Source: Balneola sp.
GTDB taxonomy: Bacteria; Bacteroidota; Rhodothermia; Balneolales; Balneolaceae
Assembly (NCBI GenBank): GCA_002696035.1
Contig: NZQV01000017.1
Span: forward strand, 62,001-126,000
Length of the DNA: 64,000 bases
Direction: 5' to 3'
In this document: positions 8,426-51,961 of the stretch, piece by piece
Layout of the letters: each line of letters starts with the position of its first letter
Numbering within the stretch: position 1 is the stretch's first letter
The notes under the pieces: generated by a model
What the model was told of the DNA's origin: nothing
The model's database searches: none
What the model saw: only the letters and a program-made list of their open reading frames with translations
Position numbers and translations under genes: made by a program

Positions 8426-8584
8426 ACAATAGTATTTTTTCTGTTTTAGGTTCACCTACAAAAATTTGATCGCGGCGAATATCATTCCGCTACTTCCATT
8501 ATATAGGGATCGCACCATCATACTATCTATGCAGAAGCTCTTCCGGTTTTTAGTATTCTATTCACTTTACTGAACGATATAAGC

Positions 8585-9225: not shown

Positions 9226-9264
9226 AAAAAGCCCATGCAAATCAATGATCTACATGGGCTTTAC
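9226..9264 (-). terminator. original terminator of the tRNA-Phe gene, left behind at the island edge
   Basis: A perfect 10-bp stem (AAAGCCCATG with CATGGGCTTT) is followed, on the minus strand, by a T run. It sits just beyond the 3' half-copy of tRNA-Phe, where the terminator of the tRNA stood before insertion. It can also end transcription from the CIA30 gene. Confidence 0.7.
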
Positions 9265-9319
9265 TTGAGTGTGGGACCGGGCGGATTTGAACCGCCGACA
9301 CACGGATTTTCAGTCCGTT
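9257..9319. repeat. left attachment-site repeat with a 3' fragment of tRNA-Phe
   Basis: This 63-bp sequence is identical to 51874-51936. It contains the last 48 bases of tRNA-Phe (9272-9319): T arm, variable loop and the 3' side of the anticodon arm, reading on the minus strand, plus 15 bases downstream. The identity stops exactly after the bases GTCCGTT. Confidence 0.95.
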
Positions 9320-9482: not shown

Positions 9483-10688
9483 ATGCCAAAGATCAAACTT
9501 ACTGATTCATTTATAAGGAATTTTTCATATCCAGGTAAGGAACATGAGTTTTATGATGAGATCCGTCCGGGATTCATTTTAAGGGTTACCAAAACAGGCC
9601 ATAAATCTTTTTCCTACCGATATAGGTTCGGTGATAAAGTACAGCGATTTACAATTGGAGCATTTCCCGCTATCAGTTTGTCAAAAGCAAGATCAATCGC
9701 TGATGATTTACACTTAAAAGTTAAGCAAGGTATAGACCCTCAAGATGAGAAACTAAATGCCAGAACAGAGCCCAAGCAATTAACTATCTCCGAATTGAGT
9801 AAAGAATATGAAAACAGGCATTTTCCGAAACTAAAAAAAACAACTCAAGACGATTACAGGAGAAGAATCAACAACGTAATTGTTCCTGCATTGGGAGATA
9901 TTTATGTCAAAGATCTTGATAGAATTACCATCATTGATTTCTTAGAGGAGATTGCGTTTGAACATGGAAAAGACGGAGCCCCCATTCAGTCCAATAGAGT
10001 TCGGGCTGTATTATCAAGCATGTATTCATTTGGGGTGGACAAAGCAATATGTGACTTCAACCCCGTTCAAACAGTAAAACCCATTGGCGAAGAAAAGTCG
10101 AGAAACCGAGTCTATTCAAAAAAAGAAATTAAGCTGTTATGGGAGCATTTTTGCTTCGAAACTGAACCTTTTAGCAGTGTTTTTAAAATGCTGCTTATTA
10201 CTGGGCAACGATTGAGGGAAACCAGAAGAATGAAGTGGAAGCATATAAAGAATGATATCTGGATAATACCTGAAGAAGAGACGAAAGCGAGCAGAACCCA
10301 CTTTGTTCCGTTAAGTACATTGGCTTTAAAAATTCTAGAAGAGAGAAAAGAAATTTCGGGTGATTCTGATTTTGTATTTGAATCACCAGTCAATCCTGGG
10401 GAGCCTATTTACTGGCTTCAACACGCAGCTGCAAGAGTTAGAAGGGCATCAAAGATCGACGACTTTAGAATTCATGATCTTCGAAGAACAGTCGCAAGTT
10501 TTATGGCTGAACAGGGAGTTTCACGTACAGTGTTAGGAAAAATATTGAACCACAAGGGGTTGTCAGGTGATAGTAGTGTTACTGCAATTTATGACCGACA
10601 TGAATATATGGATGAGAAAAAGGATGCTTTGGATAGTTGGGCCAATCAATTGGAACGTATCTTTACAGAGGAGAAAGAAAAAAATTAA
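9483..10688 (+). CDS. int: tyrosine-type integrase of the island
   Basis: The 401-residue protein has an N-terminal DUF4102-type arm-binding domain (FYDEIRPGFILRVTKTG), a central SAM-like core-binding domain, and a C-terminal catalytic domain. The catalytic residues are visible: Arg243 (TGQRLRE), His331 and Arg334 (HDLRR), His357 and the nucleophile Tyr370 (IYDRHEYM). This is the P4/prophage integrase layout typical of tRNA-targeting elements. It starts 163 bases inside the left attachment repeat and reads inward. It would catalyse insertion and excision at tRNA-Phe. Confidence 0.95.
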   Translation: MPKIKLTDSFIRNFSYPGKEHEFYDEIRPGFILRVTKTGHKSFSYRYRFGDKVQRFTIGAFPAISLSKARSIADDLHLKVKQGIDPQDEKLNARTEPKQLTISELSKEYENRHFPKLKKTTQDDYRRRINNVIVPALGDIYVKDLDRITIIDFLEEIAFEHGKDGAPIQSNRVRAVLSSMYSFGVDKAICDFNPVQTVKPIGEEKSRNRVYSKKEIKLLWEHFCFETEPFSSVFKMLLITGQRLRETRRMKWKHIKNDIWIIPEEETKASRTHFVPLSTLALKILEERKEISGDSDFVFESPVNPGEPIYWLQHAAARVRRASKIDDFRIHDLRRTVASFMAEQGVSRTVLGKILNHKGLSGDSSVTAIYDRHEYMDEKKDALDSWANQLERIFTEEKEKN

Positions 10689-21475: not shown

Positions 21476-24454
21476 ATGATGAATTACGGCACAACTTGGC
21501 ATAGATGGGAGCCTCATATTCATACTCCTGAAACACTGTTAAATGATCAATTTAATAGTGAAGATCCTTGGGAAGATTATCTCACTATAATTGAGAAGTC
21601 TGAACCTCAAATTCGAGCTATTGGAATAACAGATTACTACCTCACCGATAATTATGAAAAAATATTATTAGCAAAATCAGAGGGTAGGTTGCCTAATATT
21701 GATCTTATTTTTCCAAATATCGAATTAAGACTGGACATAGCTACTCAAAAAGGGAAATGGGTTAACATTCATTTATTAGTAGATCCGATTGACCCAGAAC
21801 ATATCCCTCAAGTCAAGAGGTTACTAGCTCGACTCAATTTTAGAGCACATAATGACACTTTTGCGTGTACTCCTGAAGATCTAATAAGACTAGGGAAAGC
21901 ATCTGACAAAGATATAGAAGATGACCAATCAGCTTTAAGATATGGAGCGACTCAGTTCAAAGTTGGTTTTGATCAATTGAGAGAGGAGTTTGATAAATCA
22001 GGTTGGGCAAAAGAAAATATAATAGTAGCAATAGCAGGAAGTAAAACGGATGGTACATCTGGTGTAAGAGATGCTTCTGACACAACTCTCCGTGAAGAGA
22101 TGGAAAGTTTTGCAAAAATAATATTTGCCAGTAGTGCAGCTCAGCGTGAATTTTGGCTGGGTTTAAGAAGTTTGAATGAACAAGAAATAATCTCAAGATA
22201 TGGAGGTCTAAAACCTTGTCTTCATGGTAGTGATGGCCATGATTTTATAAATACTGGGGAACCAGATGAAAATCGTTTTTCATGGATTAAAGGTGGTATT
22301 GAATTTGATAGTATTAAACAAGCTTGCATTGATCCTTACGGCCGGGCATTTGTAGGAATCAGTCCACCTGAGACAGGAATACCGTCACAATCAATTGATA
22401 GTATCCAAATTAACGGTGCTTCTTGGGCAAAAACACCAAAAATTGGTTTAAATCCTGGTCTTGTATCGATAATAGGTGCTCGAGGTTCAGGTAAAACTGC
22501 CCTTGCTGACATGATAGCTATGGCCTGTGATTCTATACATGAGGCAACAGAATTAGAAAATAGTAGATTAACCACATCCTTTATCAAGCGAGCGAAAGAC
22601 CTACTTGATGGAATTAATGTCAGTATAAACTGGAGATCAGGTGATTCTGAAAACCGGGCGCTCGATGGTTCGACAACTCCTGATGTTAAAAATCCACGAG
22701 TAAGATATTTATCTCAGCAATTTGTTGAAGATCTTTGTTCGTCTGATGGTTTAACTGATGAACTACTCAGTGAAATAGAAAGAGTCATATTTGAATCACA
22801 TTCCTTAACTGAACAAGATGGCGCTATCGATTTTTCTGAATTATTAGAATTGCGGTCATCCAGAATACGACAGGCAAGAGAGCGAGAAGAAGAAGCAATA
22901 GTTCAATTATCGGATCGAATAGGATCAGAACTAGAAAAAGACAGGGAAATTCCCAAATTGAAAGAACAAATTGCCCAAAAGAAAAAAAAGATCAAAGCTT
23001 ATGAAGAAGATCGAAAAAAACTGGTCACGAAAGGAAGTGAGAAACGTGTAGAACGATTAACTGAATTAACATCAGCTGCGGAAAAAGTTAGGGGGTTTAT
23101 AAAGTATTTCAAAAATCAAGAACAGGCATTACTTGGTCTTCAAGATGAAGTCGAGGATCTTCGAAATAATAAGGCCCCAGAAATGCTTCGCCAATCTAAA
23201 GAAAGGCATTCAGCCAGTCGTATGAATCCACAAGACTGGGACACTTTTTTACTGGATTATACTGGTGATGTAAATCAAAAATTAAAAACTCTTTTGAAAA
23301 GCTCGAAAGAATCTATGAATGGTTGGAGGGGCACTAAACCAAAACAACCGGATTCTCCAGAAACTCCATTGATAAATGAAAGTGAAGATCTAGAAAAACA
23401 AACTCTTGCTTTGCTTGAAGCCGAGATTAATCGATTAGAGAAATTAGTTAGTGCTGACAAAGTCACTCAAAGAAGATACTCTGCACTTTCTAAGAGTATA
23501 ATTTCTGAGTCTAGTATACTTGAAAACCTTGAAGAAAAGTTAAAGGTAGCAAAAGGTGCAAAAAAGCGTATTAAAAACCTTCAAGTAGATAGAGAAGAGG
23601 CTTATAAACGAATATTTGATCTAATAGAATCCGAAGAGAATGTCCTTAAAGAATTGTATAAGCCATTGATGGAAAAGATCAATTCAAAAAAAGGAACTAT
23701 CACAAAACTTTCATTTACTGTATCGCGGAATGTAAATGTAGACAAATGGTCAGAATTTGCAGAGAATGAGCTTGTTGATCTCCGTCGCCAAGGCCCTTTT
23801 AAAGGAAAAGGAAATCTTAAAACCATAGTAAATAATACTCTTAAAGAGGCATGGACAAGTGGAGATTCAGATTCAGTAATTGATGCTATGTCAAGTTTTC
23901 GAGAGAAATATCTAAAAAAATTACTGGAACACTCAAATGTTCCTAAAGGTGATCAAAATGATTATAGAGCATGGCTGAAACGTTTTGCAAAATGGTTGTA
24001 TTCCACTGACCACATAAAATTAAATTATAGTGTTGACTATGATGGAGTTGATATCCAAAAATTATCTCCTGGAACGCGAGGAATTGTACTTCTCCTACTT
24101 TATTTAGCCCTTGATGACGCCGATGATCGGCCATTAATAATCGATCAGCCAGAAGAAAACTTAGATCCAAAATCAGTCTTTGATGAGTTAGTTGAATTAT
24201 TTATTGATGCCAAATCAAAACGACAGGTAATTATGGTCACACATAATGCTAACCTCGTAGTAAATACTGATTCGGATCAAGTTATTATTGCAAACGCAGA
24301 ACCAAATGTACGTGGGAAACTTCCGGATATTAGTTACAAATCAGGAGGTTTAGAAAATAAGGAAATTCGAAAAGCTGTGTGTGATATTCTTGAAGGAGGA
24401 GAACATGCTTTTAAAGAAAGAGCAAGAAGATTGAGAATTAATATGTCTAAATAA
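21476..24454 (+). CDS. TrlF-family PHP-ATPase, defence protein
   Basis: The 992-residue protein starts with a PHP-like domain (WHRWEPHIHT, His-x-His). It continues with an SMC/ABC-type ATPase: Walker A IIGARGSGKTAL near residue 340, long coiled coils near residues 450-750, signature LSPGTRG, Walker B PLIIDQPEENLD and H-loop VTHNANLVV near the end. This is the layout of TrlF, found with tRNA-targeting and anti-phage loci. It is probably a nuclease controlled by ATP. ATG 21476 is used; 21479 also possible. It fills an integron-type cassette almost completely. Confidence 0.85.
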   Translation: MMNYGTTWHRWEPHIHTPETLLNDQFNSEDPWEDYLTIIEKSEPQIRAIGITDYYLTDNYEKILLAKSEGRLPNIDLIFPNIELRLDIATQKGKWVNIHLLVDPIDPEHIPQVKRLLARLNFRAHNDTFACTPEDLIRLGKASDKDIEDDQSALRYGATQFKVGFDQLREEFDKSGWAKENIIVAIAGSKTDGTSGVRDASDTTLREEMESFAKIIFASSAAQREFWLGLRSLNEQEIISRYGGLKPCLHGSDGHDFINTGEPDENRFSWIKGGIEFDSIKQACIDPYGRAFVGISPPETGIPSQSIDSIQINGASWAKTPKIGLNPGLVSIIGARGSGKTALADMIAMACDSIHEATELENSRLTTSFIKRAKDLLDGINVSINWRSGDSENRALDGSTTPDVKNPRVRYLSQQFVEDLCSSDGLTDELLSEIERVIFESHSLTEQDGAIDFSELLELRSSRIRQAREREEEAIVQLSDRIGSELEKDREIPKLKEQIAQKKKKIKAYEEDRKKLVTKGSEKRVERLTELTSAAEKVRGFIKYFKNQEQALLGLQDEVEDLRNNKAPEMLRQSKERHSASRMNPQDWDTFLLDYTGDVNQKLKTLLKSSKESMNGWRGTKPKQPDSPETPLINESEDLEKQTLALLEAEINRLEKLVSADKVTQRRYSALSKSIISESSILENLEEKLKVAKGAKKRIKNLQVDREEAYKRIFDLIESEENVLKELYKPLMEKINSKKGTITKLSFTVSRNVNVDKWSEFAENELVDLRRQGPFKGKGNLKTIVNNTLKEAWTSGDSDSVIDAMSSFREKYLKKLLEHSNVPKGDQNDYRAWLKRFAKWLYSTDHIKLNYSVDYDGVDIQKLSPGTRGIVLLLLYLALDDADDRPLIIDQPEENLDPKSVFDELVELFIDAKSKRQVIMVTHNANLVVNTDSDQVIIANAEPNVRGKLPDISYKSGGLENKEIRKAVCDILEGGEHAFKERARRLRINMSK

Positions 24455-24473
24455 TAACAAATTTTAAATTTGC

Positions 24474-24563
24474 ACCTAACAAAACGTTTCAAGTGGACTA
24501 TATTAAGATCCGGAAATATAATTAACTAATCAGGTTAGCCACTTAAATGCTAGACCATTAGTT
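24474..24563 (+). repeat. attC site closing the TrlF cassette
   Basis: R'' is ACCTAAC (24474-24480, matches RYYYAAC), followed by AAAACGTTTCAAGTGG; the other arm is CCACTTAAATGCTAGACC then ATTAGTT (24557-24563). The inner arms AAGTGG and CCACTT pair. This is the R''-L''-L'-R' order of integron attC sites and is close in sequence to the aadA-type and Vibrio repeats. R' starts with A instead of G, so its recombination activity may be reduced. Confidence 0.72.
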
Positions 24564-24581
24564 TTAAAAACAAGAAATAAA

Positions 24582-25367
24582 ATGCCTGAATTTGAGACAT
24601 ACAAATTCAAAGATTGGGGGTCATTAAAAGAGCACTTAAATTATTTTAGAAGTGACTGGATTTTTAGGGGGCAGGCTAATGCTACTTGGGAATTGGAAAC
24701 TTCTATAGAGAGAACTGATTTTAAGTGGACTAACCAAAAAGCAGAATTAGTTTTAATCTCCGAATTTCAGAGGGGTGTACATAACTTTGTCGATGACAAA
24801 AGGCTACCTCAGAATCTTCTTGGGTGGTTAGCTTTTATGCAACATCATGGTACACCAACGAGGATGCTAGACTTTACTACTTCACCCTACGTAGCAGCTT
24901 ATTTTGCTTTATCAGAAATGGAAGATAATTCTGCAATTTGGGCTATAAATAATTCTTGGTTAAATAAAGAGACAAAAAAACGTATCACTCAAAAAGAATA
25001 CTATACTTCCTACGGACAAGTGGATTTTAATAACGATCAGATTTTCGAGGAAACAATTCTAAAAAACGAATACAACTTTGTCACAAAAGTTTCTCCTCAT
25101 AAAAGAAATCAAAGAATTTATTATCAACAAGGACTTCACGTTGTACCCGGGAATACTAGTATATCTTTCATGGAAAACTTAAAATCTATGGGGAATCTCG
25201 AAGGAAATGTGGAAAAGATAAAATTAACACCAGAATTACGATTTGAGGCTCTACAAGATTTATTAAACATGAATATTAATAGAGCTACATTATTTCCAGG
25301 TATTGATGGTTTTGCTATTTCTGTAAAAGAAAAAATCCTAATGTTAAGGGAAATGTTTACTACTTAA
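24582..25367 (+). CDS. FRG-domain protein
   Basis: The 261-residue protein carries the FRG domain: WIFRGQANATWELETSIER at the N-terminus and HHGTPTRMLDFTTSPYVAAYFA in the middle. The family takes its name from the Phe-Arg-Gly motif (residues about 26-28) and occurs widely in phage-defence islands and toxin-like loci; its reaction is unknown. It starts just after the attC of the TrlF cassette, and a possible R'' (AACTAAC, 25375-25381), complementary to the first bases of this cassette, follows. The rest of its attC appears deleted. Confidence 0.85.
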   Translation: MPEFETYKFKDWGSLKEHLNYFRSDWIFRGQANATWELETSIERTDFKWTNQKAELVLISEFQRGVHNFVDDKRLPQNLLGWLAFMQHHGTPTRMLDFTTSPYVAAYFALSEMEDNSAIWAINNSWLNKETKKRITQKEYYTSYGQVDFNNDQIFEETILKNEYNFVTKVSPHKRNQRIYYQQGLHVVPGNTSISFMENLKSMGNLEGNVEKIKLTPELRFEALQDLLNMNINRATLFPGIDGFAISVKEKILMLREMFTT

Positions 25368-25538
25368 CTTTAGCAACTAACATCCTTAAAATAGATAATA
25401 TCAAGGGCATATAATTTCCCCACCGTAGATATTTCGTTCTTATTTTGGCAGAATTCCCCTCCTTCCCAATAGCTTTTCATCTTTTTTGGGTATAAGAATA
25501 ATGAGCAATCATGCTCAGTAATTCTTAATCCAGAACCA

Positions 25539-26306
25539 ATGAACCTACAACCATTCTGCTTTCCTGTAACGCTAAGAACTGTAGCAGTCGACAACGCCAA
25601 ATCACCTCTAATCGACATCGATGACCAAGAGTCCTTCTTACCTAATGGTTATAAGGCTATTGTACGAGAAGATACAAACGAAGTCATTTCCATCGTAAAA
25701 GACTCCTACAAGATCGTGAAGAATAACGATCTCATTGATCAGCTCTTACGATCCCTTGCCACTTCAGGGTATCAGTTCAGGATTGATCCGTCTCACAGTT
25801 TTGTCGAGAATAATCGGATGAGATTAATGATCACCTTTCCTGAACTTCTTTTCCGGGATGGCGAATCTGATATCGCCCTGTCTGCTTTCATACATAACAG
25901 CTACGATCAATCTGAAGGCGTCCGCTTCTATTTTGGCGCTATCCGAAAGATATGTTCCAATGGTATGGTGTTCGGGCAGATTCTGTCCAAATACTATTCC
26001 AAGCATACCTCCGGCTTCTCTTTTGAAGATCTTGGAGAAAAGTTGGCTGATGCCAGGGATTATTTTCCCGTGATCCAAGAGCGCATCAATCGCCTTGAGA
26101 CTTTGCGGGTGGATGAGCAACTCGTGGAAAACGTATCCAATAAAATCTCCAAACGCTTGGCTGAACAAGTCATCGAGCAGGAGGAAATTGGGCGAATTAC
26201 CCAATGGGAAATGCTCAATAGGCTAACCAATTATGTGAGCCATGATCTGGACCAACGGCACCGTGCCCGTTATCAGGACAACATCAGCAAAGTGTTTGCC
26301 CTGTAA
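25539..26306 (+). CDS. DUF932 phage/plasmid-like protein
   Basis: The 255-residue protein has the DUF932 pattern: VVKDSYKIVKNNDLI-like block near residue 60, RMRLMITFPE, and the conserved GVRFYFGAIRKICSNGMVFG. It is found on plasmids, phages and conjugative islands next to recombination genes; its role is unknown. It is at the head of a run with a small basic protein, a YqaJ exonuclease and a likely ssDNA-binding protein, consistent with element DNA metabolism. Confidence 0.85.
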   Translation: MNLQPFCFPVTLRTVAVDNAKSPLIDIDDQESFLPNGYKAIVREDTNEVISIVKDSYKIVKNNDLIDQLLRSLATSGYQFRIDPSHSFVENNRMRLMITFPELLFRDGESDIALSAFIHNSYDQSEGVRFYFGAIRKICSNGMVFGQILSKYYSKHTSGFSFEDLGEKLADARDYFPVIQERINRLETLRVDEQLVENVSNKISKRLAEQVIEQEEIGRITQWEMLNRLTNYVSHDLDQRHRARYQDNISKVFAL

Positions 26307-26375
26307 CGGAGATCGTATGTCGTTAGGAACATTAGTCGTCAAGATCATCATCATAATCTGCAAGGGAGGAAAACC

Positions 26376-26513
26376 ATGAGCGTCAAATCTGTTCTACTCA
26401 AAAGCCTCCTAGAGGGGTTCAAACATGGGCTTCGGCTCTGGCTCTGTAAAGACCGCCAGGAAGACCCTCCTCCTACACATCAAAACGAATCAAACCACAA
26501 GCCTGCCGGATAA
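26376..26513 (+). CDS. small hypothetical protein (45 residues)
   Basis: The ATG at 26376 is preceded by GGGAGGA six bases upstream, the best ribosome binding site in the area, and the frame gives 45 residues ending CLPAG-like Pro-Ala-Gly before TAA 26511. A 20-codon frame (26317-26379) overlaps its start by ATGA and could couple translation. The product has a basic first half (GFKHGLRLWLCKDR) and a polar tail. The stop lies inside the terminator stem. Function unknown. Confidence 0.55.
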   Translation: MSVKSVLLKSLLEGFKHGLRLWLCKDRQEDPPPTHQNESNHKPAG

Positions 26514-26531
26514 CCCGGTGGGCTTTTTTAT
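26500..26531 (+). terminator. Rho-independent terminator
   Basis: AAGCCTGCCGG and CCCGGTGGGCTT form an ~11-bp stem with a 3-4 base loop, followed by six T. It ends the DUF932/small-protein unit before the YqaJ gene. Confidence 0.85.
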
Positions 26532-26559
26532 TTCTACCAATCCTTAAACAAAATCACTT

Positions 26560-27489
26560 ATGAAACTATTAGATAACATTCCAAAAAAATCTTGGATTGA
26601 GGCTCGAGTAAATTATTTGGGCGGAAGTGAGATATCTGCCGCCCTTGGCAAGTCTCCCTACCAAACACCCTTTCAACTCTGGCTTCTGAAAACCGGCCGT
26701 AGAGAGCCTCAAGGTTCCACGCCTATCACAGAGATGGGTCATATACTGGAGCCTGTCTGCGCGGAAAAATTCACCGAAATGACCGGGCTGAAAGTCCGCA
26801 ATATCTCGGAGCCCTACGAACACGAAGAGTATACATTCTTACGTGGAAACATAGATAGGCAAATTGTAAGCTCGGAGAAGCATCCAGGGCCGGGAGTTTT
26901 GGAGATCAAAACAACCACGTCTCATAGAATGCGAAACGAGCCGAACGCCTATCCGCTGAGTTGGGAGTATCAGATTCAACATTATCTTATGCTTACATCT
27001 TATCAATATGCGTATTTGATCGTTATGGAAAGGGACACTGGCTACTTCCACGACCCGATCTACATCGAGCGCAATGAAGAACTGATCGCCATTAACACTC
27101 AAAAAGTAATAGAATGGTGGGAAGATCATGTGATTGCCGATGTGCCACCGGATGCCATGACAGACGAAGATCTGCTCATACTCTATCCGGATGCAAAAGA
27201 GGGAGAAACGGTCGAAGCGAATCCAAAGCTGTACGCATACTTTCAGCAGCTTCAGAAAGTAAGAGACCGCCTTGACGAGTACAAAACACACAAGGAATCC
27301 CTGGAGCACCTGCTCAAAGAAGAGTTAGGAAATGCGGAGCATATGACACTGGCTGGCCGGAGGCTCTTCAGCTGGAAGAACTCTACCCAACGCCGGTTCA
27401 ATACCACAGCCTTTCGGAAAGAGTACCCGCAGCTCTACAAGCAGTTTCTAAAGGAAACCACCACCCGACGTTTCACCATTAACACTTAA
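26560..27489 (+). CDS. YqaJ/lambda-type exonuclease
   Basis: The 309-residue protein has the YqaJ viral recombinase pattern: YLGGSEISAALGKSPY at residues about 16-31, GNIDRQIV for the active-site Asp, and VLEIKTTT for the Glu-x-Lys pair, all of the PD-(D/E)xK fold. Such enzymes degrade one strand from DNA ends and feed a single-strand annealing protein. It is followed 11 bases later by a gene I take as its ssDNA partner. It serves recombination or replication of the element. Confidence 0.9.
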   Translation: MKLLDNIPKKSWIEARVNYLGGSEISAALGKSPYQTPFQLWLLKTGRREPQGSTPITEMGHILEPVCAEKFTEMTGLKVRNISEPYEHEEYTFLRGNIDRQIVSSEKHPGPGVLEIKTTTSHRMRNEPNAYPLSWEYQIQHYLMLTSYQYAYLIVMERDTGYFHDPIYIERNEELIAINTQKVIEWWEDHVIADVPPDAMTDEDLLILYPDAKEGETVEANPKLYAYFQQLQKVRDRLDEYKTHKESLEHLLKEELGNAEHMTLAGRRLFSWKNSTQRRFNTTAFRKEYPQLYKQFLKETTTRRFTINT

Positions 27490-27500
27490 ACCCAATAATC

Positions 27501-28010
27501 ATGGCACTAATCATAAAAGAAGAAAAAATCGAATACCCCTTGGCTCCCGACGGCCTATTAGATGCCCTCCTCGTGGATGTGGTAGATCTAGGCGAGCTGG
27601 ACACTCCTTGGGGACCAAAACATAAATTGTCTTTGGTCTTTGAGTTGGAGGACACCGACTCCGAGGGAAAGCACTTCATCGTTACCAAGCGATATACGTG
27701 GTCGCTCAACGAGAAATCCAATTTACGCAAGGACCTCGAAAGATGGCGCGGTTCTAAGTTCAGCAAAGATGAGCTCGAAAGTGGCGTAGATATGGAAGCT
27801 TTCATTGGGCTGAATGCCACGCTGTTTATCAGCCATAATGAGTCCGAGCAGCATGAAAAAATATTCGCCAACATCGAAACCATTCTTCCTCGGAAGAAAA
27901 ACAACAAGGTGGTCTTCTACGACCTCAAGCCATCCGGCGATTATACCCGTGTAGTTGAAAGGGAAAATTATAAGAAACCTGAAGAGTATGCAGAGATGGT
28001 AAACAGCTAA
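27501..28010 (+). CDS. probable ssDNA-binding / phage replication accessory protein
   Basis: The 169-residue acidic protein has alternating beta-rich segments (HKLSLVFELED, HFIVTKRYTWSLNEKSNLRKDLERW) and LNATLFISHNE. This resembles the phage replication-accessory proteins that stand beside YqaJ or RecT genes and that have OB-like folds. No named family is certain. It shares a promoter with the upstream exonuclease. The ssDNA role is inferred from context. Confidence 0.65.
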   Translation: MALIIKEEKIEYPLAPDGLLDALLVDVVDLGELDTPWGPKHKLSLVFELEDTDSEGKHFIVTKRYTWSLNEKSNLRKDLERWRGSKFSKDELESGVDMEAFIGLNATLFISHNESEQHEKIFANIETILPRKKNNKVVFYDLKPSGDYTRVVERENYKKPEEYAEMVNS

Positions 28011-28037
28011 TGAATGGAGGGCCTTAGTGCCCTCTTT

Positions 28038-28262
28038 TTATTCCACTCCCTTGGTAAGCTCAGCTAATGAAGTTTCCAAGGCCTTCGCAATCTTGATCAG
28101 TGTATAGACGGTGGGCATAGTTTGCCCACGCTCAACCAAGTCTATCATATTGCGGTGAAGATCACTTTCCAATCCTAAATCAAACTGTGAGAGTCCAGCC
28201 TTTTCTCTGGCTCTTTTCACATTAATCCCAATAATAGACTGTATTTCTTCCTTGGACTTCAT
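28038..28262 (-). CDS. XRE-family HTH regulator
   Basis: The protein is a single Cro/C1-type helix-turn-helix domain (VKRAREKAGLSQFDLGLESDLHRNMIDLVERGQTMPTVYTLIKIAKAL). I choose ATG 28262 (MKSKEEIQ); ATG 28277 would add five residues. It is divergent from the secreted-protein operon and only 34 bases from a perfect 18-bp palindrome, so it is the likely repressor of that operon and of itself. Confidence 0.88.
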   Translation of the reverse strand: MKSKEEIQSIIGINVKRAREKAGLSQFDLGLESDLHRNMIDLVERGQTMPTVYTLIKIAKALETSLAELTKGVE

Positions 28263-28295
28263 GATCCAAGTATGCAAGAAATATCACCTTGACTA

Positions 28296-28313
28296 TGCAC
28301 AATATATTGTGCA
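28296..28313. promoter_or_regulatory. 18-bp perfect palindrome, probable operator of the XRE regulator
   Basis: TGCACAATA and TATTGTGCA form a perfect 18-bp inverted repeat between the divergent regulator and the secreted-protein genes. It lies in the 17-base spacer between TTGACT (28289-28294) and CAATAT (28312-28317), a plausible plus-strand promoter, so binding would block RNA polymerase. Confidence 0.7.
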
Positions 28314-28342
28314 ATATCTCACAACTTTCTAAAACTCATATT

Positions 28343-28831
28343 ATGAAATACTTACTAAACTTCACATTTAAACGATTACCCAAAACAGGATGTAAAATAC
28401 TTATTCTGTTTGCATTAACACTCTCACCTATCATTCATGGTTATGCGCAAGCTCCCATTGATGTAACCGATGAACACGCTAAACTTGGTAGAACTTTTGC
28501 TGATCTCGTGTGGAAAGCTTCGGAGACGGGTACTATTAGCTTACCTGTTACTGAAGATTTATCCAGTGGTGATGGAGAGACTATTAAAATCGAGTTCAAA
28601 AACCCAATTAGTAAAGGGGATTTCAAATCCGTTGTCAGCCAAGTAGTGAATGATCACGATGTGATAATTAATGCGAAGGGTGGCTGGGGTGAAGATAATG
28701 AGAATGTGTTTACGTTCTTCTGGCTTAATTCTGATGCAGATGAAGGAAGTCTAAGGGCAAATACCATGGTGCTATATAATGTAATTTCCGGCACTGCCGT
28801 CTTTATTACAACTAGCGAGCAACCAGAGTAG
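28343..28831 (+). CDS. exported protein, first of a tandem pair
   Basis: The 162-residue protein has a signal peptide: basic start, hydrophobic ILILFALTLS core, cleavage after about residue 35 (GYAQA). The mature part starts with PIDVTDEHAKLGRTFADLVW. It is clearly paralogous to the next gene (PIDVTDQHAKIGRTFVDEVW). No known family. The ATG at 28343 is chosen because the upstream in-frame TTG codons would break the signal peptide. Export points to a surface or periplasmic role. Confidence 0.75.
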   Translation: MKYLLNFTFKRLPKTGCKILILFALTLSPIIHGYAQAPIDVTDEHAKLGRTFADLVWKASETGTISLPVTEDLSSGDGETIKIEFKNPISKGDFKSVVSQVVNDHDVIINAKGGWGEDNENVFTFFWLNSDADEGSLRANTMVLYNVISGTAVFITTSEQPE

Positions 28832-28839
28832 GACTCATC

Positions 28840-29328
28840 ATGAAAATCTTATTAAACTTCACGATTGAGAGTCTGCGAACAACAGGAAGTAAGATACTTA
28901 TCCTGGTTGCTATAATACTATCACCTACCATTCATATCTCTGCTCAAACCCCCATTGATGTTACAGACCAGCACGCTAAGATTGGTAGAACTTTCGTAGA
29001 CGAAGTTTGGACTACTACAAAAACTGGAACGGTCACGTTACCTAAAAAAATGGATCTGCCTATTGGAGCAAAAGGGGAGCAAATCAGGATCAAATACAGT
29101 GATCCAATCAGTAAGTGGACTTTTAGATCTGCTGTGAATAAGGTAGTAGACACTTACTCAGATATTACAAACGCCGCAGGGGGATGGTCTGATGAAGATG
29201 AAAACATCATCACCTTACTCACACTCAATGCAGGTAACTATCAGAATAGACAGAGGGCGGGATGTCTTGTGCTATATAACGAGAATACCGGAACCGCCGT
29301 CTTCTTTATAACAAGCACTCAACTATGA
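28840..29328 (+). CDS. exported protein, second of a tandem pair
   Basis: The 162-residue paralogue of the previous gene keeps the signal peptide (ILILVAIILSPTIHISAQ), the PIDVTDxHAKxGRTF block and the end (LVLYNENTGTAVFFITS). About a third to a half of positions are identical by eye. The genes are eight bases apart. Its TGA stop overlaps the next ATG (ATGA at 29325), so the third gene is translationally coupled. Confidence 0.75.
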   Translation: MKILLNFTIESLRTTGSKILILVAIILSPTIHISAQTPIDVTDQHAKIGRTFVDEVWTTTKTGTVTLPKKMDLPIGAKGEQIRIKYSDPISKWTFRSAVNKVVDTYSDITNAAGGWSDEDENIITLLTLNAGNYQNRQRAGCLVLYNENTGTAVFFITSTQL

Positions 29329-29594
29329 AAAAGCACATCTATAAAATTGCATTTACTGTAATCTGGATGCTCCTCGGCCTTTGGCTGACCATACCCGTGG
29401 ATGATGGACGAGAAATCGGTGACATGTGGATGGATGGCGGAGACTTACTTGTGAAAACAGGCCATACTAACTGGTATGCCAATATGGATCTGTTTGCCCT
29501 ATTCATGATACCTGTCATAGGCATGTGGATATGGGTACTCTTCAAAGATGAAACCAAAGACAAACCAGTAAAACGCCGTAGCCGGATGTTTTAA
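29325..29594 (+). CDS. small two-segment membrane protein
   Basis: The 89-residue protein has two predicted membrane helices (IAFTVIWMLLGLWLTIPV and LFALFMIPVIGMWIWVLF) and a basic tail (KDKPVKRRSRMF), suggesting both ends are cytosolic. It is coupled to the two exported-protein genes and shares their operator. The three could form an envelope complex. No known family. Confidence 0.7.
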   Translation: MKKHIYKIAFTVIWMLLGLWLTIPVDDGREIGDMWMDGGDLLVKTGHTNWYANMDLFALFMIPVIGMWIWVLFKDETKDKPVKRRSRMF

Positions 29595-29619
29595 AGAGAA
29601 GCTTCGGCTTCTCTTTTTA
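29594..29619 (+). terminator. Rho-independent terminator of the exported-protein operon
   Basis: AGAGAAGC and GCTTCTCT pair around a TTCG tetraloop and are followed by TTTTT. This is a compact, strong terminator directly after the TAA. Confidence 0.85.
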
Positions 29620-29700
29620 CACTAAATATTAAATCACTTCTCTTTGATGTGAATCATAAATTAAACCTTTTGTTACTTCCACTAAAAATTATGGCTAACA

Positions 29701-30282
29701 TTATCTTATCCCACCTTTATACAGCGAAATAGTGTTTTCAATTGGATATCCTAACAATAGACCAGTAAGCCACAATTGAATTTTACCGCCATCTTGGGCA
29801 TCCCAATCATCAAAATAATATGATATAGATCTTTCTCCCACGTCAGATATGTCTATATCAAAACCATTGTCATGGTAATCATTTTTAAGAGTTTCCAAAT
29901 CGAAATGGTCTTTTATTTTACCTTTTGGTGCAACTGCTAAGTAATATGCTCCTGTTTTTTCAATTTCAAATATTCCTAAATCATACTTTTGGGTATCAAT
30001 TTTTTCATGATACTTTTGCAAATCCTTCTTTTTCCATTCTGTGACAATTCCTAAAGGTTTTTTACCCTCCAGGACCCTTTTTAAGAGAGCCTCATTTGAT
30101 AAATCTATATCATTTAAGCCCCAGCCTCCACAGAAGTGTTGGTTCATATCATTGACCATCTTGTTTTTAAAGCTCAAACTATGTGGCTGATAAAAATACC
30201 TAACCAACAAATATCCATTATTGTATATTTTTTTGGTTTGTGTTTTTTTCCCTTTAACAATGTAAATACCGTGTTTTTTCAT
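29701..30282 (-). CDS. hypothetical protein
   Basis: The 193-residue protein has a basic start (MKKHGIYIVKGKKTQTKKIY) and an acidic second half (FDIDISDVGERSISYYFDDWD). The end (WLTGLLLGYPIENTISLYKG) may form an amphipathic strand-turn. No signal peptide. No family recognised. It stands alone on the minus strand. The 297-base gap to the next gene (30283-30579) holds only a T-rich stretch and a small hairpin (30498-30520). Confidence 0.65.
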   Translation of the reverse strand: MKKHGIYIVKGKKTQTKKIYNNGYLLVRYFYQPHSLSFKNKMVNDMNQHFCGGWGLNDIDLSNEALLKRVLEGKKPLGIVTEWKKKDLQKYHEKIDTQKYDLGIFEIEKTGAYYLAVAPKGKIKDHFDLETLKNDYHDNGFDIDISDVGERSISYYFDDWDAQDGGKIQLWLTGLLLGYPIENTISLYKGGIR

Positions 30283-30579
30283 TTGTATATTTTTTTGGTG
30301 TTGTTTTGTTTCTTTTTAAAAATAGAGGCACAAACTGAAGCAATACCTCTGATCACTCTAAGAACTTAATTATTATATAAGTCCAATATAAATTAATACT
30401 TAAGTTCCTTATGGAGCTCCCTGAAATTGTAAGAAAGGCAGTGAGTTAAAAACTTAAAATCGAATTTTCGCTAGGACCTGGAGCGCTGCGCGTCTCGAAG
30501 AGAAGCCTAGGTTTCTTTTTGCATTAAATGTTATATCACTTAGGTATATTCACATCAAAGAAATCTAACAACGTAAAAC

Positions 30580-30972
30580 ATGGATACCCTTCGAGAACAG
30601 CTAATGACATCATTAAGAGTCTTTCTCTTTTTGGACACTTACGCGCCTCGGGATCTGAATATGAACCAACCCATTACTGAAATTAAAATGACTGAGGAAG
30701 AGTACCTCGATGAGACATTGGTAGGCATTGCTATAAACCGGTGGCAAATTCACCATGCCTATCACATTCAGCAGCCAAATATTACACGCTTTAGCATTGC
30801 TGAATTAGCCGATCTTGCTCTTGCTTCTGAAAGGTTAGTTGGAAAAGACTACCAGTGCTTTGTAAATGATAAAATGGATGAGATCTCCGTCACGCTAAGG
30901 GAATATTTACAAGATTCTTTTCGTGAACAAGGCGTGATTGAAGAGGCCGAATACTTGATGAATTTGAATTAG
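30580..30972 (+). CDS. hypothetical protein
   Basis: The 130-residue protein is mostly helical and acidic, with an aromatic/His patch in the middle (NRWQIHHAYHIQQP). No motif is recognised. It lies before the TPR-metallopeptidase gene with a 163-base gap, so they may or may not be linked. Confidence 0.65.
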   Translation: MDTLREQLMTSLRVFLFLDTYAPRDLNMNQPITEIKMTEEEYLDETLVGIAINRWQIHHAYHIQQPNITRFSIAELADLALASERLVGKDYQCFVNDKMDEISVTLREYLQDSFREQGVIEEAEYLMNLN

Positions 30973-31135
30973 AGAGTCCAATCCAACCTAATATTTTAAA
31001 GTGCTTTGGCTCCATATTATTGTGCTAATATACACGCTTTGCATAGAAGCTAAAATGCCATAAAATTCCTTCCCAATAACCATTATCTTACTTAGGTTAT
31101 TAACGAGCTGTTAATCCTGAATCTATATTTACTGA

Positions 31136-33091
31136 ATGGTTATCACCCATATTGTTGACGACTTTTTATTTGAACTCTTTCCTGAAGCGGAACATGATAC
31201 CGAAAAGCTGACCTCTATTCTAAAGCGGTATTATACCCTGGGGCCTTTTGAGCCGGAGGTGGAACTCAAAGATTCAAGCATCGAAGTTTCCATAGATGTA
31301 GATCGCATTAATACCGATAAGAGCAAGTTTGATAAGCTGGTTAAATACGCCGAATCCGGAAAGCTGGATAAGGCCATTGAACTGGCGAATGATCTTATTG
31401 AAACCGCTCCAAACATCAGTGAATACCATCGGGTGCGTGGACAAGCCTACTCCGAGAAGGGAGATCAGGAAGAAGCTATCAACTCACTGATTGATGCCCT
31501 GAAGTGGAATCCCAAGAACGAGTGGGCACTGCTAATGATTGGTAACATATATGCCCGGTTCAAAAAGGACATGGAAACAGCTCTAAAGTATTTTGACAAA
31601 GTGTTAGAAGTGAAACCGGATGATTACCATGCCTTAAACAACATTGGAGTTCAGCTTTTTGAAGCTGGCCGTAAAGAGGAGGCGTTGGAATACTTGAATA
31701 AAGCTTTGGAGGCTAATCCTAAGTATCCAAACACCTTGTTTGCCTTTGCCATGATTGCCTACCGGGAAAATGATTATTCCAAAGCGTTTGAATTCAGCGC
31801 CAAATCTCTTCGCAATCAGGATAAGAAAAATGAATTATACGATAATGCCGTTAAAATGGCGCTTTCCAGTGCAAAAGAATTGACCGGAGAGATTGATGGA
31901 CTTAGTATAGCGGAAGAGTACATGCAATCACTATCCGACCGATTCAGCGTGGATATTAAGATGGAAGCAGATCCTGAAATACCTACGGCTGCGACTATGC
32001 AATATGCGGAGGTATATCAGCGAAACCATCACTTGATTAAATATAAGCCTAATCATCCGGCTGTGGCTCATTTGGTGGTACATGAGTTAATGCATCTGGA
32101 GCTTCGGGAAGAAGCGAGAGCTGAAAATGCCAACAAACTGTTAACTACAACCGATTCTACTAAAGCTTCTTTCCGGCTGACATTCAAGAAAGATGCCGAG
32201 CGCCTAAAAAAGAAAGGTGTACCTGAATCCAATGTCCGGGGTTTTATGGATTCTATGGCTGACGGTCTTAACCGACAAGTGTTCAATACACCTATTGATG
32301 TGTTTATTGAAGACCGCATCTATAACCGTTTTGAAGAACTGCGACCTTTTCAGTTGCTATCCCTTCATGCCAACACAATGGAAGGAGCCGATGCCAACAC
32401 CCGACCAGATATCATTAAGAATGCTCCCAACAAAGTTATTTCAGCCTCTACAACCTACGGATTGGTTCATGCTCTACAGCTAAAGGATTTGTTTGGTGTT
32501 GATCTCATAAGCGAATTCAAACCTAAACGACGTGAAGTTGAAACGGCAACCAAGTTCTATGAAGAATACCTGGAGCATAAGGATAATAAAGAAGCCGGTA
32601 TCGAATACGACCTGATTCAGTTTTGGGCGGAAGACTTGAACCTTGACCGGTATTTCAATCTCATTGATGAGAGGAACCAAAATAATTCAGCCGACTCAGT
32701 ACTGGACAAAATAGAAAGTGATCCTTACGGATTGGATGAAGATGATCCTTCCAAAGACCGGAAGATGAAAACTTTCATGGAGAAACACGGTGGGGATGAT
32801 TTAAACATGGCCGTGGCTATGTATATGGTTGGTGCTCTCCAGTATTTTGAGGGAATGGACAAGGCCAAGATCAAGGAAATTGCTTTTGACATTGCCAAAG
32901 TGGGTACTGCTGGTATTGATCCTAAAAAGGATGGGTATCGAATTCCGAGTATCCCAGATAGTAATTTTTCAGGCTATCAGACCTTAGCTTATTTTTATGT
33001 GAGCTGGGCCTTTGCCGTTCCGGAAATGGTTTCGAGTCTTGGGTTGTCTTTTGATAAGGAGTTTGAGCTGGCTAAGGAATATTTGAATTGA
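31136..33091 (+). CDS. TPR-repeat protein with an HExxH metallopeptidase-like motif
   Basis: The 651-residue protein has about four to five tetratricopeptide repeats at residues ~60-240 (LDKAIELANDLIETAPNISE, ALKYFDKVLEVKPDDYHALN). These are followed by a domain with HELMHLE (near residue 320), an HExxH zinc-site motif, and a helical C-terminus (FSGYQTLAYFYVSWAFAVPEM). No signal peptide, so it is cytosolic. A proteolytic role, with the repeats binding a target, is an inference. It ends in TGA, another island gene that uses TGA as stop. Confidence 0.75.
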   Translation: MVITHIVDDFLFELFPEAEHDTEKLTSILKRYYTLGPFEPEVELKDSSIEVSIDVDRINTDKSKFDKLVKYAESGKLDKAIELANDLIETAPNISEYHRVRGQAYSEKGDQEEAINSLIDALKWNPKNEWALLMIGNIYARFKKDMETALKYFDKVLEVKPDDYHALNNIGVQLFEAGRKEEALEYLNKALEANPKYPNTLFAFAMIAYRENDYSKAFEFSAKSLRNQDKKNELYDNAVKMALSSAKELTGEIDGLSIAEEYMQSLSDRFSVDIKMEADPEIPTAATMQYAEVYQRNHHLIKYKPNHPAVAHLVVHELMHLELREEARAENANKLLTTTDSTKASFRLTFKKDAERLKKKGVPESNVRGFMDSMADGLNRQVFNTPIDVFIEDRIYNRFEELRPFQLLSLHANTMEGADANTRPDIIKNAPNKVISASTTYGLVHALQLKDLFGVDLISEFKPKRREVETATKFYEEYLEHKDNKEAGIEYDLIQFWAEDLNLDRYFNLIDERNQNNSADSVLDKIESDPYGLDEDDPSKDRKMKTFMEKHGGDDLNMAVAMYMVGALQYFEGMDKAKIKEIAFDIAKVGTAGIDPKKDGYRIPSIPDSNFSGYQTLAYFYVSWAFAVPEMVSSLGLSFDKEFELAKEYLN

Positions 33092-36124: not shown

Positions 36125-36586
36125 TTACTTGTAAAGCTCATTTATCCAGTCGTTGACCGGTTTAATTATATGTGACGATAAAGTACCGTGCAGGTCTTCC
36201 GGTCTTTTTATGTGGGCAAAACTATTTCGAATATTGACAATAGCATCAATCTGTTTTTTATTAACGTCAAGATGCTTCTTTTTTTTCGCCCAATACAGAA
36301 GCCCTGTTAACCCCTTTGCAGATTTGCTCCCTTTTGCATCTTCGAATTTAGTTCTTAAAGCCAATTCAAAGGCCATTATCATAAGAAACTCTGCTACATC
36401 CTGTAGTTCATAATCAATAGAGCGGAGCTTATACACGCTTTTTACCTGTGATAACTTATTCTTGACAGCATCCGGTACATTCACATGTGGTGCAATTAAG
36501 GATTCAGCTTGTTTTTCAAACATTTCCTGAGTGTATGGAGGCACGAAGGCTTCCCACCGGCTGTCCATTTTATACTTCAACAACAT
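36125..36586 (-). CDS. HEPN-like protein of the type III restriction operon
   Basis: The 153-residue helical protein has RNSFAHI near residues 122-128, matching the Rx4-6H motif of HEPN ribonucleases, and a long helix before it. It starts three bases after the end of the restriction subunit gene, so it is the last gene of that operon. It may act as a toxin-like effector or accessory to the type III system. This is inferred from motif and position. Confidence 0.7.
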   Translation of the reverse strand: MLLKYKMDSRWEAFVPPYTQEMFEKQAESLIAPHVNVPDAVKNKLSQVKSVYKLRSIDYELQDVAEFLMIMAFELALRTKFEDAKGSKSAKGLTGLLYWAKKKKHLDVNKKQIDAIVNIRNSFAHIKRPEDLHGTLSSHIIKPVNDWINELYK

Positions 36587-36589
36587 AGA

Positions 36590-39481: not shown

Positions 39482-40118
39482 CTGCCTCTATTTTTTCAAA
39501 CTGTTTTTCCGCAAAACTTTTAAACTCATAGTAAGAATCATTACCTAATTCATGTTTGAAGTATTTTCTCATGTGTGGATTTTTAAAAAACACTTCCATT
39601 CCTTTATACCAATATTCCATGATTTGAGGAGGAATGTATCCATTACAATAAGCCATATACTCTTCAGCACATAGATTCAGATAATCATCTAATACATTTT
39701 CTACAGTATCAGAATCTGTCAAATGTTTTCTCAGACTTCCATATTGCTTGTTGTCAAGACCATCAAAAGGTTCTGCACCCTCACCTGATACAAGATTCTT
39801 GGTTTTACTATTAATAATATTCATGATGCCATTTAATTCATCATACCTTTGATTATATTTTTCAAATAGCTGAAAAAATATACTCATGTCATTGTGCTTC
39901 TGTCTCATAAAAGCAAAGAGCAGAGTCAGAATACCTAATATCATTCCAAGCCATGTTCGGAATTCTATTTGATCGTCCGGTACAGCACCAATAATTCCAC
40001 CGTCTGTTATTACATCAACAATCGAAAAAGCTATTACTACTAATAGACAAAGTATGAGGAATGAAATTATCCCTTGATCATGTCTGTATAACCAAAACTT
40101 AATTCTATAGTGATTCAT
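39471..40118 (-). CDS. two-segment membrane protein inserted between mod and res
   Basis: From ATG 40118, one base after the mod stop, the protein has 215 residues. Two membrane helices (IISFLILCLLVVIAFSIV and FRTWLGMILGILTLLFAFM) are followed by a long cytosolic part (FFQLFEKYNQRYDEL). This looks like the putative phage abortive-infection membrane proteins found in restriction loci, but the match is not certain. Its overlap with res by 11 bases shows one operon. It may link the restriction system to the membrane. Confidence 0.7.
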   Translation of the reverse strand: MNHYRIKFWLYRHDQGIISFLILCLLVVIAFSIVDVITDGGIIGAVPDDQIEFRTWLGMILGILTLLFAFMRQKHNDMSIFFQLFEKYNQRYDELNGIMNIINSKTKNLVSGEGAEPFDGLDNKQYGSLRKHLTDSDTVENVLDDYLNLCAEEYMAYCNGYIPPQIMEYWYKGMEVFFKNPHMRKYFKHELGNDSYYEFKSFAEKQFEKIEADEA

Positions 40119-40119
40119 T

Positions 40120-42201: not shown

Positions 42202-43440
42202 ATGAAAGATTTAGACTGGAGTAAAGAACACATCTTATGGATTGCAAATAATGTCCCTGAAGAAGTAGGTGATCTGGATTCAAAAGTTTTAAGGAAAAAA
42301 ATTGAACCTTGGCTTACAGCTGTTTTTCAAAGTGAACACCTTTCTCTATTACTTGGTACTGGAATTACAACGGCTGTTGTTAATGAAGCAAATCAAGAAG
42401 CCCAAGCTATGGATCGACTTGAATTTTCCACCTGTGGAAATGTGATTAAGGATTCGGCTGATGAGTCAGCAAAGCTTATGGACAGAGGCAAAGCAAATTT
42501 TGAAGATGATCTAAGAACAGCAATTGAGCTCTGGAATGGATTGAAAATTTCCAAAAACGATAAGGCAAAAGCCTTGAAAAATGAAATTGATACTCAGTTA
42601 GTCAACTTAGTTAAAAGCCTACTCGAAAATGAAAAAAAAGTGCTTGAATCAACTGACTATCATTCAGCTATGGCGCTACTAAAACAATTTCTAATTAGTT
42701 TTAGTAGCCGTACTGCTACCAGAGACCGACTTCATATATTTACTACCAATTACGACAGGTTCCTTGAACATGCTTTAGACTTATCTGCAATCCATGTTTT
42801 AGATCGGTTTATTGGGAAACTGTCCCCAATTATGCGAATGAATAAGATGGAGTTGGATTATCATTATAACCCACCAGGAATTAGAGGTGAACCCAGATAT
42901 GTTGAAGGGGTAGTGCGTTATACTAAGTTACATGGTTCACTGGATTGGCGGTTAAATAATAATGAAATCAGAAAAGAGCCTATTCAATTTGGTGAGGTTC
43001 CCGATAAAATTTCTAATCCATTTGAAGCTAAAGTAATTTATCCAAACTCTGCAAAAGGGATTGATACAGCCTATTTTCCTTATTCTGAACTATTCCGTGA
43101 TTTTTCAAGCGCAACCTGTCGACCAAACTCAGTTCTGATTACATATGGTTACGGTTTTGGCGATACCCATATTAATAACATCATACTTGACATGATGACG
43201 ATCCCCTCAACTCATCTTGTCATCATTTCATATGATAAAGCTGATGGTAGAGTTGAAAAGTTTGTCAATAAGTGTAATCCATCTCAATTGACTCTTTTAA
43301 TAGGCAACCATTTTGGAAAGCTGAAAACTCTCGTTAAAAATTATCTACCTAAATCAGCAATTGATAGAATTTCAAAACGACAAGCAAAAGTAATGGAAGT
43401 AAGAAAGGAAATTGACAATTCGGACGATACAGATGAGTGA
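42202..43440 (+). CDS. SIR2-domain protein of a SIR2-HerA defence pair
   Basis: The 412-residue protein has SIR2-like motifs: SLLLGTGIT, FTTNYDRFLE and TKLHGSLDW with the expected His. In such systems the SIR2 domain degrades NAD+ when activated. It overlaps the HerA gene by eight bases (ATGAGTGA), so the two are co-translated. It is divergent from the type III operon, with 174 bases between. Confidence 0.88.
   Translation: MKDLDWSKEHILWIANNVPEEVGDLDSKVLRKKIEPWLTAVFQSEHLSLLLGTGITTAVVNEANQEAQAMDRLEFSTCGNVIKDSADESAKLMDRGKANFEDDLRTAIELWNGLKISKNDKAKALKNEIDTQLVNLVKSLLENEKKVLESTDYHSAMALLKQFLISFSSRTATRDRLHIFTTNYDRFLEHALDLSAIHVLDRFIGKLSPIMRMNKMELDYHYNPPGIRGEPRYVEGVVRYTKLHGSLDWRLNNNEIRKEPIQFGEVPDKISNPFEAKVIYPNSAKGIDTAYFPYSELFRDFSSATCRPNSVLITYGYGFGDTHINNIILDMMTIPSTHLVIISYDKADGRVEKFVNKCNPSQLTLLIGNHFGKLKTLVKNYLPKSAIDRISKRQAKVMEVRKEIDNSDDTDE

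Positions 43441-51873: not shown

Positions 51874-51879
<6 letters not shown>
51836..51879 (-). terminator. terminator of the restored tRNA-Phe, supplied by the island
   Basis: AAAGCCTTGA (51839-51848) pairs with TCAAGGCTTT (51870-51879); on the minus strand it is followed by T-rich sequence. Its stem differs in sequence from the displaced host terminator at 9226-9264. The island thus brought its own terminator for the tRNA. Confidence 0.75.

Positions 51880-51961
<82 letters not shown>

Follow-up and report, generated by a model that had tools for sequence, protein, structure and literature searches.

A putative exchangeable repressor-plus-envelope-protein cassette in Balneolaceae integrative islands

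A controller-like repressor facing an exported-protein operon

A 64,000-nucleotide stretch of a Balneola sp. genome (assembly GCA_002696035.1, contig NZQV01000017.1, positions 62,001 to 126,000; hereafter, the window) contains a short XRE-family repressor gene that faces, across an 80-nt divergent intergenic region (28263-28342), an operon encoding two exported proteins, Exp1 and Exp2, and a two-helix membrane protein, TM2 (Table 1). Around the unit is a 42.6-kb island whose ends are 63-bp perfect repeats at tRNA-Phe; immediately upstream of the unit sits a phage-like trio of backbone genes, the last of which, encoding an NGO0469-family protein, is convergent with the XRE gene. A first-pass annotation, made from the sequence alone, had described here an XRE regulator, an 18-bp perfect palindrome in a promoter spacer, two tandem exported paralogs, a coupled two-helix membrane protein and a closing terminator, and had proposed that they form a self-contained unit in a mobile island. 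All of these components were recovered in our analysis. Exp1 and Exp2 are 53% identical, present signal-like N termini ending in AQ (by eye) and lack a lipobox (by rule for Exp1, by eye for Exp2), while TM2 presents two hydrophobic segments (by eye).

Table 1. Coordinates of the cassette, its regulatory sites and island landmarks in the window
Feature	Position	Strand	Basis
att direct repeat, left island end	9257..9319	.	copies 3' part of tRNA-Phe; 63-bp perfect repeat
Island tyrosine integrase	9483..10688	+	Phage_integrase 8.6e-19; Arm-DNA-bind_3 8.2e-18
DUF932 backbone gene	25539..26306	+	PF06067 1.4e-14; gene order kept in relatives
YqaJ/RecE-like exonuclease, backbone	26560..27489	+	PF09588 4.1e-26; phrog_434 2e-77
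NGO0469-family phage replication initiation protein, backbone	27501..28010	+	NF046043 1.5e-29, 102.8 bits (cut-off 75)
Terminator separating NGO0469 gene from XRE	28016..28035	+	pattern scan and hairpin folding
XRE repressor, 74 aa	28038..28262	-	HTH_3 E 2.3e-12; restriction-modification controller (C-protein)-like
Operon promoter, TTGACT, 17 nt, CAATAT	28289..28317	+	read from sequence
Operator palindrome, type A, 18 bp, perfect	28296..28313	.	sequence search
Exp1, exported, 162 aa	28343..28831	+	signal-like N terminus, hydrophobic segment
Exp2, exported, 162 aa	28840..29328	+	signal-like N terminus; mature part modeled as Mog1p/PsbP/DcrB-like
TM2, two-helix membrane protein, 89 aa	29325..29594	+	ATG overlaps stop of Exp2
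Operon terminator, hairpin then Ts	29593..29619	+	-13.5 kcal/mol, z -4.5; absent from pattern-scan list
att direct repeat, right island end	51874..51936	.	overlaps tRNA-Phe 51888-51961

The repressor is the only gene of the unit with a Pfam match above cut-off. Compared with solved structures, the profile of its family matches the restriction-modification (R-M) controllers C.BclI (9.8e-17, positions 3-76 of 78) and C.AhdI (4.5e-13), and the PADLOC Control_protein model matches the window protein at 6.1e-10, identifying it as a small single-domain HTH_3 homolog of known controller (C) proteins. PMC6237814 describes C proteins as controlling their own genes and timing expression while establishing in a new host. 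The window protein resembles the C.BclI/C.AhdI/C.Esp1396I type in its size, its single HTH_3 domain and its near full-length profile match and, on that article's account of C proteins, in having a local operator at its own gene, in horizontal movement and in association with defense. It differs in that it faces the envelope operon and not R-M genes (the type III R-M genes of the window lie 7-12 kb off, on the other strand), in being divergent where C genes are co-transcribed, and in having a single palindrome, within the promoter spacer of the 80-nt region, where the usual C-box has two dimer sites; C proteins with single sites are also described (PMC6237814).

The palindrome, TGCACAATATATTGTGCA, occupies the 17-nt spacer between a TTGACT -35 element (28289-28294) and a CAATAT -10 element (28312-28317). 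The -10 element is weak and the promoter was missed by a consensus scan; the TTGAC box is retained, by eye, at nine of the 12 related loci described below. No other perfect palindrome of at least 18 bp occurs in the window, but dinucleotide shuffles of the window (n = 30) contain a mean of 0.53 palindromes of this kind, and the palindrome alone is thus non-significant; within the intergenic region, 7 of 1000 shuffles match or beat it. What makes it significant is its conservation. In a set of 244 genomes from the same class, the palindrome with at most one mismatch was found just four times, in the window, in G018 and twice in G021, always adjoining an XRE gene of the window repressor's family, and a reversed control 18-mer gave zero matches in the same search. 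The 25-nt string TTGACTATGCACAATATATTGTGCA is intact at three of these four places, with differing downstream genes, and the window site is the only exact copy of the operator in its genome.

The position of this single site, inside the spacer of the promoter that drives the cargo, points most simply to repression by occlusion. XRE would bind the palindrome between the -35 and -10 elements, shutting off the divergent operon, and would probably autoregulate. In an island entering a cell that lacks this repressor, the operon would be on at once and then be limited as repressor accumulates, and a copy arriving where a repressor of its own type is already present would have its operon silenced. 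The first operon product would go to the membrane or periplasm.

Neither Exp1 nor Exp2 has a Pfam, PADLOC, PHROG or NCBIfam match, and hence they show no homology to a known superinfection exclusion (Sie) protein, whereas TM2 presents weak matches only, to a PHROG of unknown function (E 0.0013) and to Pfam DUF7442 (E 0.28). The Exp2 structure was modeled from three sequences (the two window proteins and the L013 protein). The best of five models, which range from 38 to 78 in pLDDT, reached a pLDDT of 77.6 and a pTM of 0.77; it predicts an alpha/beta fold whose top match in both Foldseek (E 5.6e-3) and VIA (Z 8.6, rmsd 3.2 over 97 residues; TM 0.48) is DcrB (6e8a), named in Escherichia coli for phage DNA injection. 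Since models that lack a clear match typically reach a best Z of 7-8, we treat the DcrB-like fold as a lead only. A BFVD search with the Exp2 model yielded no hit at E ≤ 0.001, and sequence comparison of Exp with the PDB gave nothing meaningful. The second VIA match is PA1624, which PMC7716261 assigns to the Mog1p/PsbP fold. Exp may resemble the DcrB/Mog1p/PsbP-like periplasmic proteins (DUF1795) in its predicted fold and is exported like them, but has no detectable sequence similarity to them, and DcrB is described as a lipoprotein (PMC7716261).

A three-row Exp profile (E ≤ 0.001) matched five of the class genomes, of which we discarded G027 and G085 as apparently spurious: their matches (E 8-9e-4) fall inside frames of ~2,400 aa, and G027 gave no match with a four-row profile. 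The credible genomes are that of the window (G000, which also names the window locus), G005 and G059; the same three alone were recovered from 394 genomes drawn from the phylum, and each holds Exp in an XRE unit. Single housekeeping homologs outside mobile elements, which the first-pass annotation had singled out as telling against its proposal, were sought and not found.

Operator types and cargo families at related loci

Searching the class genomes with a profile built from nine such XRE proteins gave 12 loci at E ≤ 1e-30, with the next match only at 6e-19. The 12 loci span nine Balneolaceae genomes; nine were in the query and three, all in G112, were newly found. No additional XRE locus below 1e-30 was detected in the phylum genomes, where the next best matches were G389 (3e-20) and G075 (6e-19). 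With gene starts chosen by hand, a distance of 75-85 nt separates the start of the divergent gene from that of XRE at all 12 loci. An N-terminal hydrophobic segment or lipobox, called with a hydrophobicity threshold that we set ourselves, is present in the first divergent gene at 12/12 loci, compared to 53 of the 229 genes in the background, made up of the remaining genes of these loci that encode 130 aa or more; given that threshold and the relatedness of the loci, the ratio is a guide and not a P-value. When the loci known through Exp (G000, G059 and G005) are set aside, the export segment is found at nine of nine loci, covering seven families. The best palindrome is centered 41-43 nt from the XRE start at 10 of the 12 loci, some of these palindromes being weak on their own, as they are equaled by between 1 and 73 of 1000 shuffles.

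Type A operators, identical in type to the window palindrome, are found at G000, G018 and G021a, with a variant, A', differing at one edge in G021b. Type B (TATCCATACTATSGTATGGATA) is found at G059, G112a and G112b and, at up to two mismatches, in no other place in the nine genomes. Type C comprises imperfect TTTGCT...AGCAAA-like dyads in G008, G062 and G112c, and the type-D loci, at which no operator was identified, are G005 and G004. On the XRE tree, the A and A' sequences group together with strong support, as do the C sequences and the D sequences; B is not resolved at the base, even though its three members hardly differ in sequence, and the tool cautions that the C and D branches, which are long, could join falsely. 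The putative recognition helix, placed by eye, varies between types and is near constant within each type. As judged from these sequences, operator types follow repressor groups.

The cargo, in contrast, comprises about nine families over the 12 loci (Table 2), and no family that recurs among the loci is confined to a single operator type. Exp is found behind types A, B and D and the transmembrane (TM)-zinc-ribbon protein behind A' and D; types B and C share the 398/401-aa lipoprotein (E 4e-185), and types A (G018) and B (G112b) share a zinc-finger second gene (E 4.5e-86). TM2 is found behind A, B, D (a weak match) and C (a broken copy). Relatives that keep the repressor-switch layout while swapping envelope genes suggest a plug-in slot for surface functions. 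We also considered a single domain common to all cargos. The signals were weak, with z 5.2 for the 401-aa against the 319-aa protein and z 4.6 for the 162-aa lipoprotein against the 138-aa protein (1 of 200 shuffles as high), and single-sequence hhalign gave neither pair at a probability of at least 30, so we kept the cargos as separate families.

Table 2. First cargo gene at the 12 repressor loci
First cargo gene	Following gene	Loci
Exp1		G000
162-aa lipoprotein		G059
TM-zinc-ribbon protein		G005, G004, G021b
213-aa lipoprotein		G018
339-aa protein, cysteine after hydrophobic stretch, missed by lipobox rule		G021a
398/401-aa lipoprotein	DUF1232-type protein (Pfam match from G008 copy)	G112a, G008
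413-aa membrane-anchored protein		G062
171-aa lipoprotein		G112b
138-aa exported protein	TM2 homolog with internal TAG	G112c

TM2 homologs occur at four of the 12 loci: G000, G059, G112c (a broken copy) and G005 (weak, E 1.3e-5), G004 being readable for 305 nt only. Those of G059 and G112c share the stop-start overlap. The G112c homolog (L096, 494-751 nt from the XRE start) is 53% identical and its internal TAG falls in the first helix, marking either a pseudogene or an assembly error. The overlap between the TM2 start and the stop of the exported gene, and matches of the XRE profile to HigA and HipB chains, would fit a toxin-immunity or toxin-antitoxin unit in which Exp hits its own or a neighbor's envelope, TM2 provides immunity and XRE silences the toxin. 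We deem this very unlikely, given that the nearest solved relatives of XRE are R-M controllers and not antitoxins, that TM2 homologs were found at these four loci only, and that no known toxin family was matched next to XRE by Exp1, Exp2 or TM2 (Pfam, PADLOC and NCBIfam) or by the other cargos (Pfam alone).

Block replacement and island context

Comparison of the window with the G008 island, which sits at another tRNA, revealed a replaced block. The two are 82.5% identical over 25516-28014, show no match across XRE and the operon (28014-29593), align again at the terminator (29593-29639; 47 bp, 91% identical) and are 87-88% identical over 30577-33066. In G008 the gap is filled by a type-C XRE gene and the 401-aa lipoprotein gene. 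Swapping both between alike flanks, this block suggests that repressor and cargo are exchangeable together, in agreement with the self-contained unit proposed in the first-pass annotation, whose bounds (28038-29619) agree closely with those of the replacement. The operon terminator is kept in the G008 island despite the replaced genes before it and, as read from the alignment, is a junction of exchange. Exchange is not confined to the cassette, because 29640-30576 also differs between alike flanks; this segment, which holds a 193-aa gene (29701-30282), is possibly a second exchange slot. At the start of that minus-strand gene, two 41-nt T-rich direct repeats (30221-30323) are 80% identical and spaced 62 nt apart.

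The NGO0469 gene was matched in 24 of the 244 class genomes, at 32 places in total. The XRE 3' end lies less than 100 bp from, and convergent with, this gene at six of the 12 loci (G000, G008, G018, G021a, G112a and G112b); the distance is 1-2 kb in G062 and G059, 6-8 kb in G004 and G005 and ~25 kb in G021b, and no NGO0469 gene was seen on the 15.5-kb contig of G112c. Neighborhoods were taken for 13 of the remaining 31 places, and for four more, and XRE relatives were sought in the 13 with phmmer, using the window XRE as query (cut-off 1e-4). Five held one (G008, G004:C2, G018, G021:403k and G062) and eight held none within the stretch taken, indicating that the cassette is frequent in such islands yet not a fixed part of them, and leading us to reject the idea that it belongs to every one. 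Near the NGO0469 gene of three islands without this XRE (L049, L052 and L057), signal-like N termini were seen by eye. A search for tRNA-touching repeats in seven of the related loci found that four have repeats spanning the cassette: G059 has one of 33 bp at tRNA-Phe, G008 one of 41 bp in the 5' half of tRNA-Arg, G021a one of 77 bp (two complete copies of tRNA-Gly) and G112b one of at least 39 bp, beginning within the final 9 bases of tRNA-Asn, where the query ended; none was found for G062 or G005, and G018 gave just a 28-bp repeat 99 bp off.

These XRE-less islands with exported proteins beside the NGO0469 gene, the heterogeneity of the cargo and the lack of defense-model matches for Exp and TM2 would all be in line with moron-like adaptive cargo, that is, unrelated host-useful envelope functions, in stress or nutrition, sharing one regulated landing slot. 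Random cargo, however, would not be envelope-targeted at 12/12 loci, and Exp occurs at low frequency (3 of 244 genomes, the two spurious matches having been dropped), rendering this explanation rather unlikely.

The window island is rich in defense genes: SIR2-HerA, FRG, a Ppl-like ATPase, type III R-M and a RES-domain protein. The SIR2-HerA pair (42202-45547) has very strong PADLOC matches (4.8e-166 and 1.6e-278). A 992-aa ATPase (Ppl, 2.2e-27), followed by an FRG-domain protein (PDC-S15, 1.2e-43), spans 21476-25367. The type III R-M region (36125-42027) holds a methylase (40120-42027), a restriction subunit (36590-39481), one interposed gene that Pfam leaves unmatched, and a protein of 153 aa with weak HEPN likeness, under the Pfam cut-off. 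Near the cassette, the G059 (L010 10462-14775) and G005 (L011 13465-18052) islands encode an exported metallo-beta-lactamase-fold protein, an SRAP protein and a Y-family polymerase, the G005 copies being identified by eye. Exp had no match in phage, plasmid or viral collections, and viral contigs yielded no TM2 relative, no match to the XRE profile and no match to the operator pattern (type A plus the G059/G112a form of type B).

The repressed layout would also suit a function needed on induction only, in which a phage-like switch would release exported products that weaken or remodel the host envelope for release, uptake or transfer, instead of protecting it. This has a published precedent in Listeria, where a phage-derived XRE switch governs mtz-tim, a pair comprising a secreted protease and a lipoprotein that is reported to sensitize cells to lysis (PMC8235301). 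The Listeria system is alike in its XRE control of exported proteins; it differs in having two XRE genes (CI/Cro) and a metzincin plus TIMP-like cargo. No protease, lysin or holin signature was found in the cargos scanned, nor was any virion or lysis gene recognized among the island proteins scanned (Pfam, and PHROGs on ten proteins), and the diversity of the cargo exceeds the needs of a conserved release function. We consider such a role unlikely.

Envelope exclusion as the preferred interpretation

The layout, export signals, operator conservation, block replacement and island context can be read directly from the DNA. On this basis we favor, at somewhat less than an even chance, an interpretation of the window unit as an exchangeable regulator-plus-envelope-cargo cassette of Balneolaceae integrative islands, whose likeliest cargo function is the envelope-level exclusion of phages or rival elements. 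Exp1 and Exp2, with their predicted DcrB/Mog1p-like fold, and the coupled TM2 would alter or guard the envelope against a phage or rival element, much as the first-pass annotation had suggested for the exported products. Location, export, diversity and precedent make exclusion the most likely function, though under even odds. A search of the literature found no title or abstract describing the Exp/XRE locus; with subscription journals outside its coverage, this is weak evidence of absence.

M78 (ImmA/IrrE-like) peptidases are able to cleave XRE repressors, and in G059, the only one of the 12 loci searched for it, an apparently complete M78 peptidase with a HELGH motif adjoins the XRE gene (L010 ~7761-8750). 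The closest precedent for exclusion is Ltp of Streptococcus thermophilus phages, described in PMC3952083 as an exported lipoprotein of the lysogeny module that blocks DNA injection and is encoded close to where an integrating element carries its repressor and integrase functions; that module also lists a putative metallo-proteinase open reading frame, to be compared with the peptidase of G059. As with Ltp, the window unit would place a predicted envelope-located product beside a regulator in an integrating element. Unlike Ltp, Exp1 and Exp2 lack a lipobox, and no family match links them to it.

Several observations weigh against envelope exclusion. Ltp is expressed by the resident element, whereas the Exp operon sits behind a repressor, an arrangement better suited to expression upon entry or induction. 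The export test is a simple hydrophobicity rule and not SignalP, applied to hand-chosen starts, and three of the first genes, those encoding TM-zinc-ribbon proteins of 67-68 aa, fall under the 130-aa limit of the background. The two type-D loci are without a palindrome, 511 and 598 of 1000 shuffles being as good; the DcrB-like match is modest and has no support from sequence; and eight of the 13 NGO0469 neighborhoods hold no XRE relative within the stretch taken. The cargo might also serve other envelope functions.

A more specific and rather improbable version of the exclusion reading takes the locus as an immunity/exclusion allotype slot in an island family without recognized capsid genes. 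Types A-D would then be heteroimmune groups, each turning on its envelope protein only when entering a cell that lacks that type, and competition between islands and phages at the envelope would drive the reassortment of repressors with surface proteins.

For the exchangeable cassette that we favor, the controller-type repressor and its operator would act as a chassis behind which uncharacterized envelope families are swapped and repressor types reassorted with cargo. About nine uncharacterized families of envelope proteins thereby gain a common testable hypothesis, and the operator, its spacing and the neighboring backbone gene provide a signature for finding more cassettes. If the exclusion role holds true, surface defense would join intracellular systems in islands that are not recognizable as prophages.

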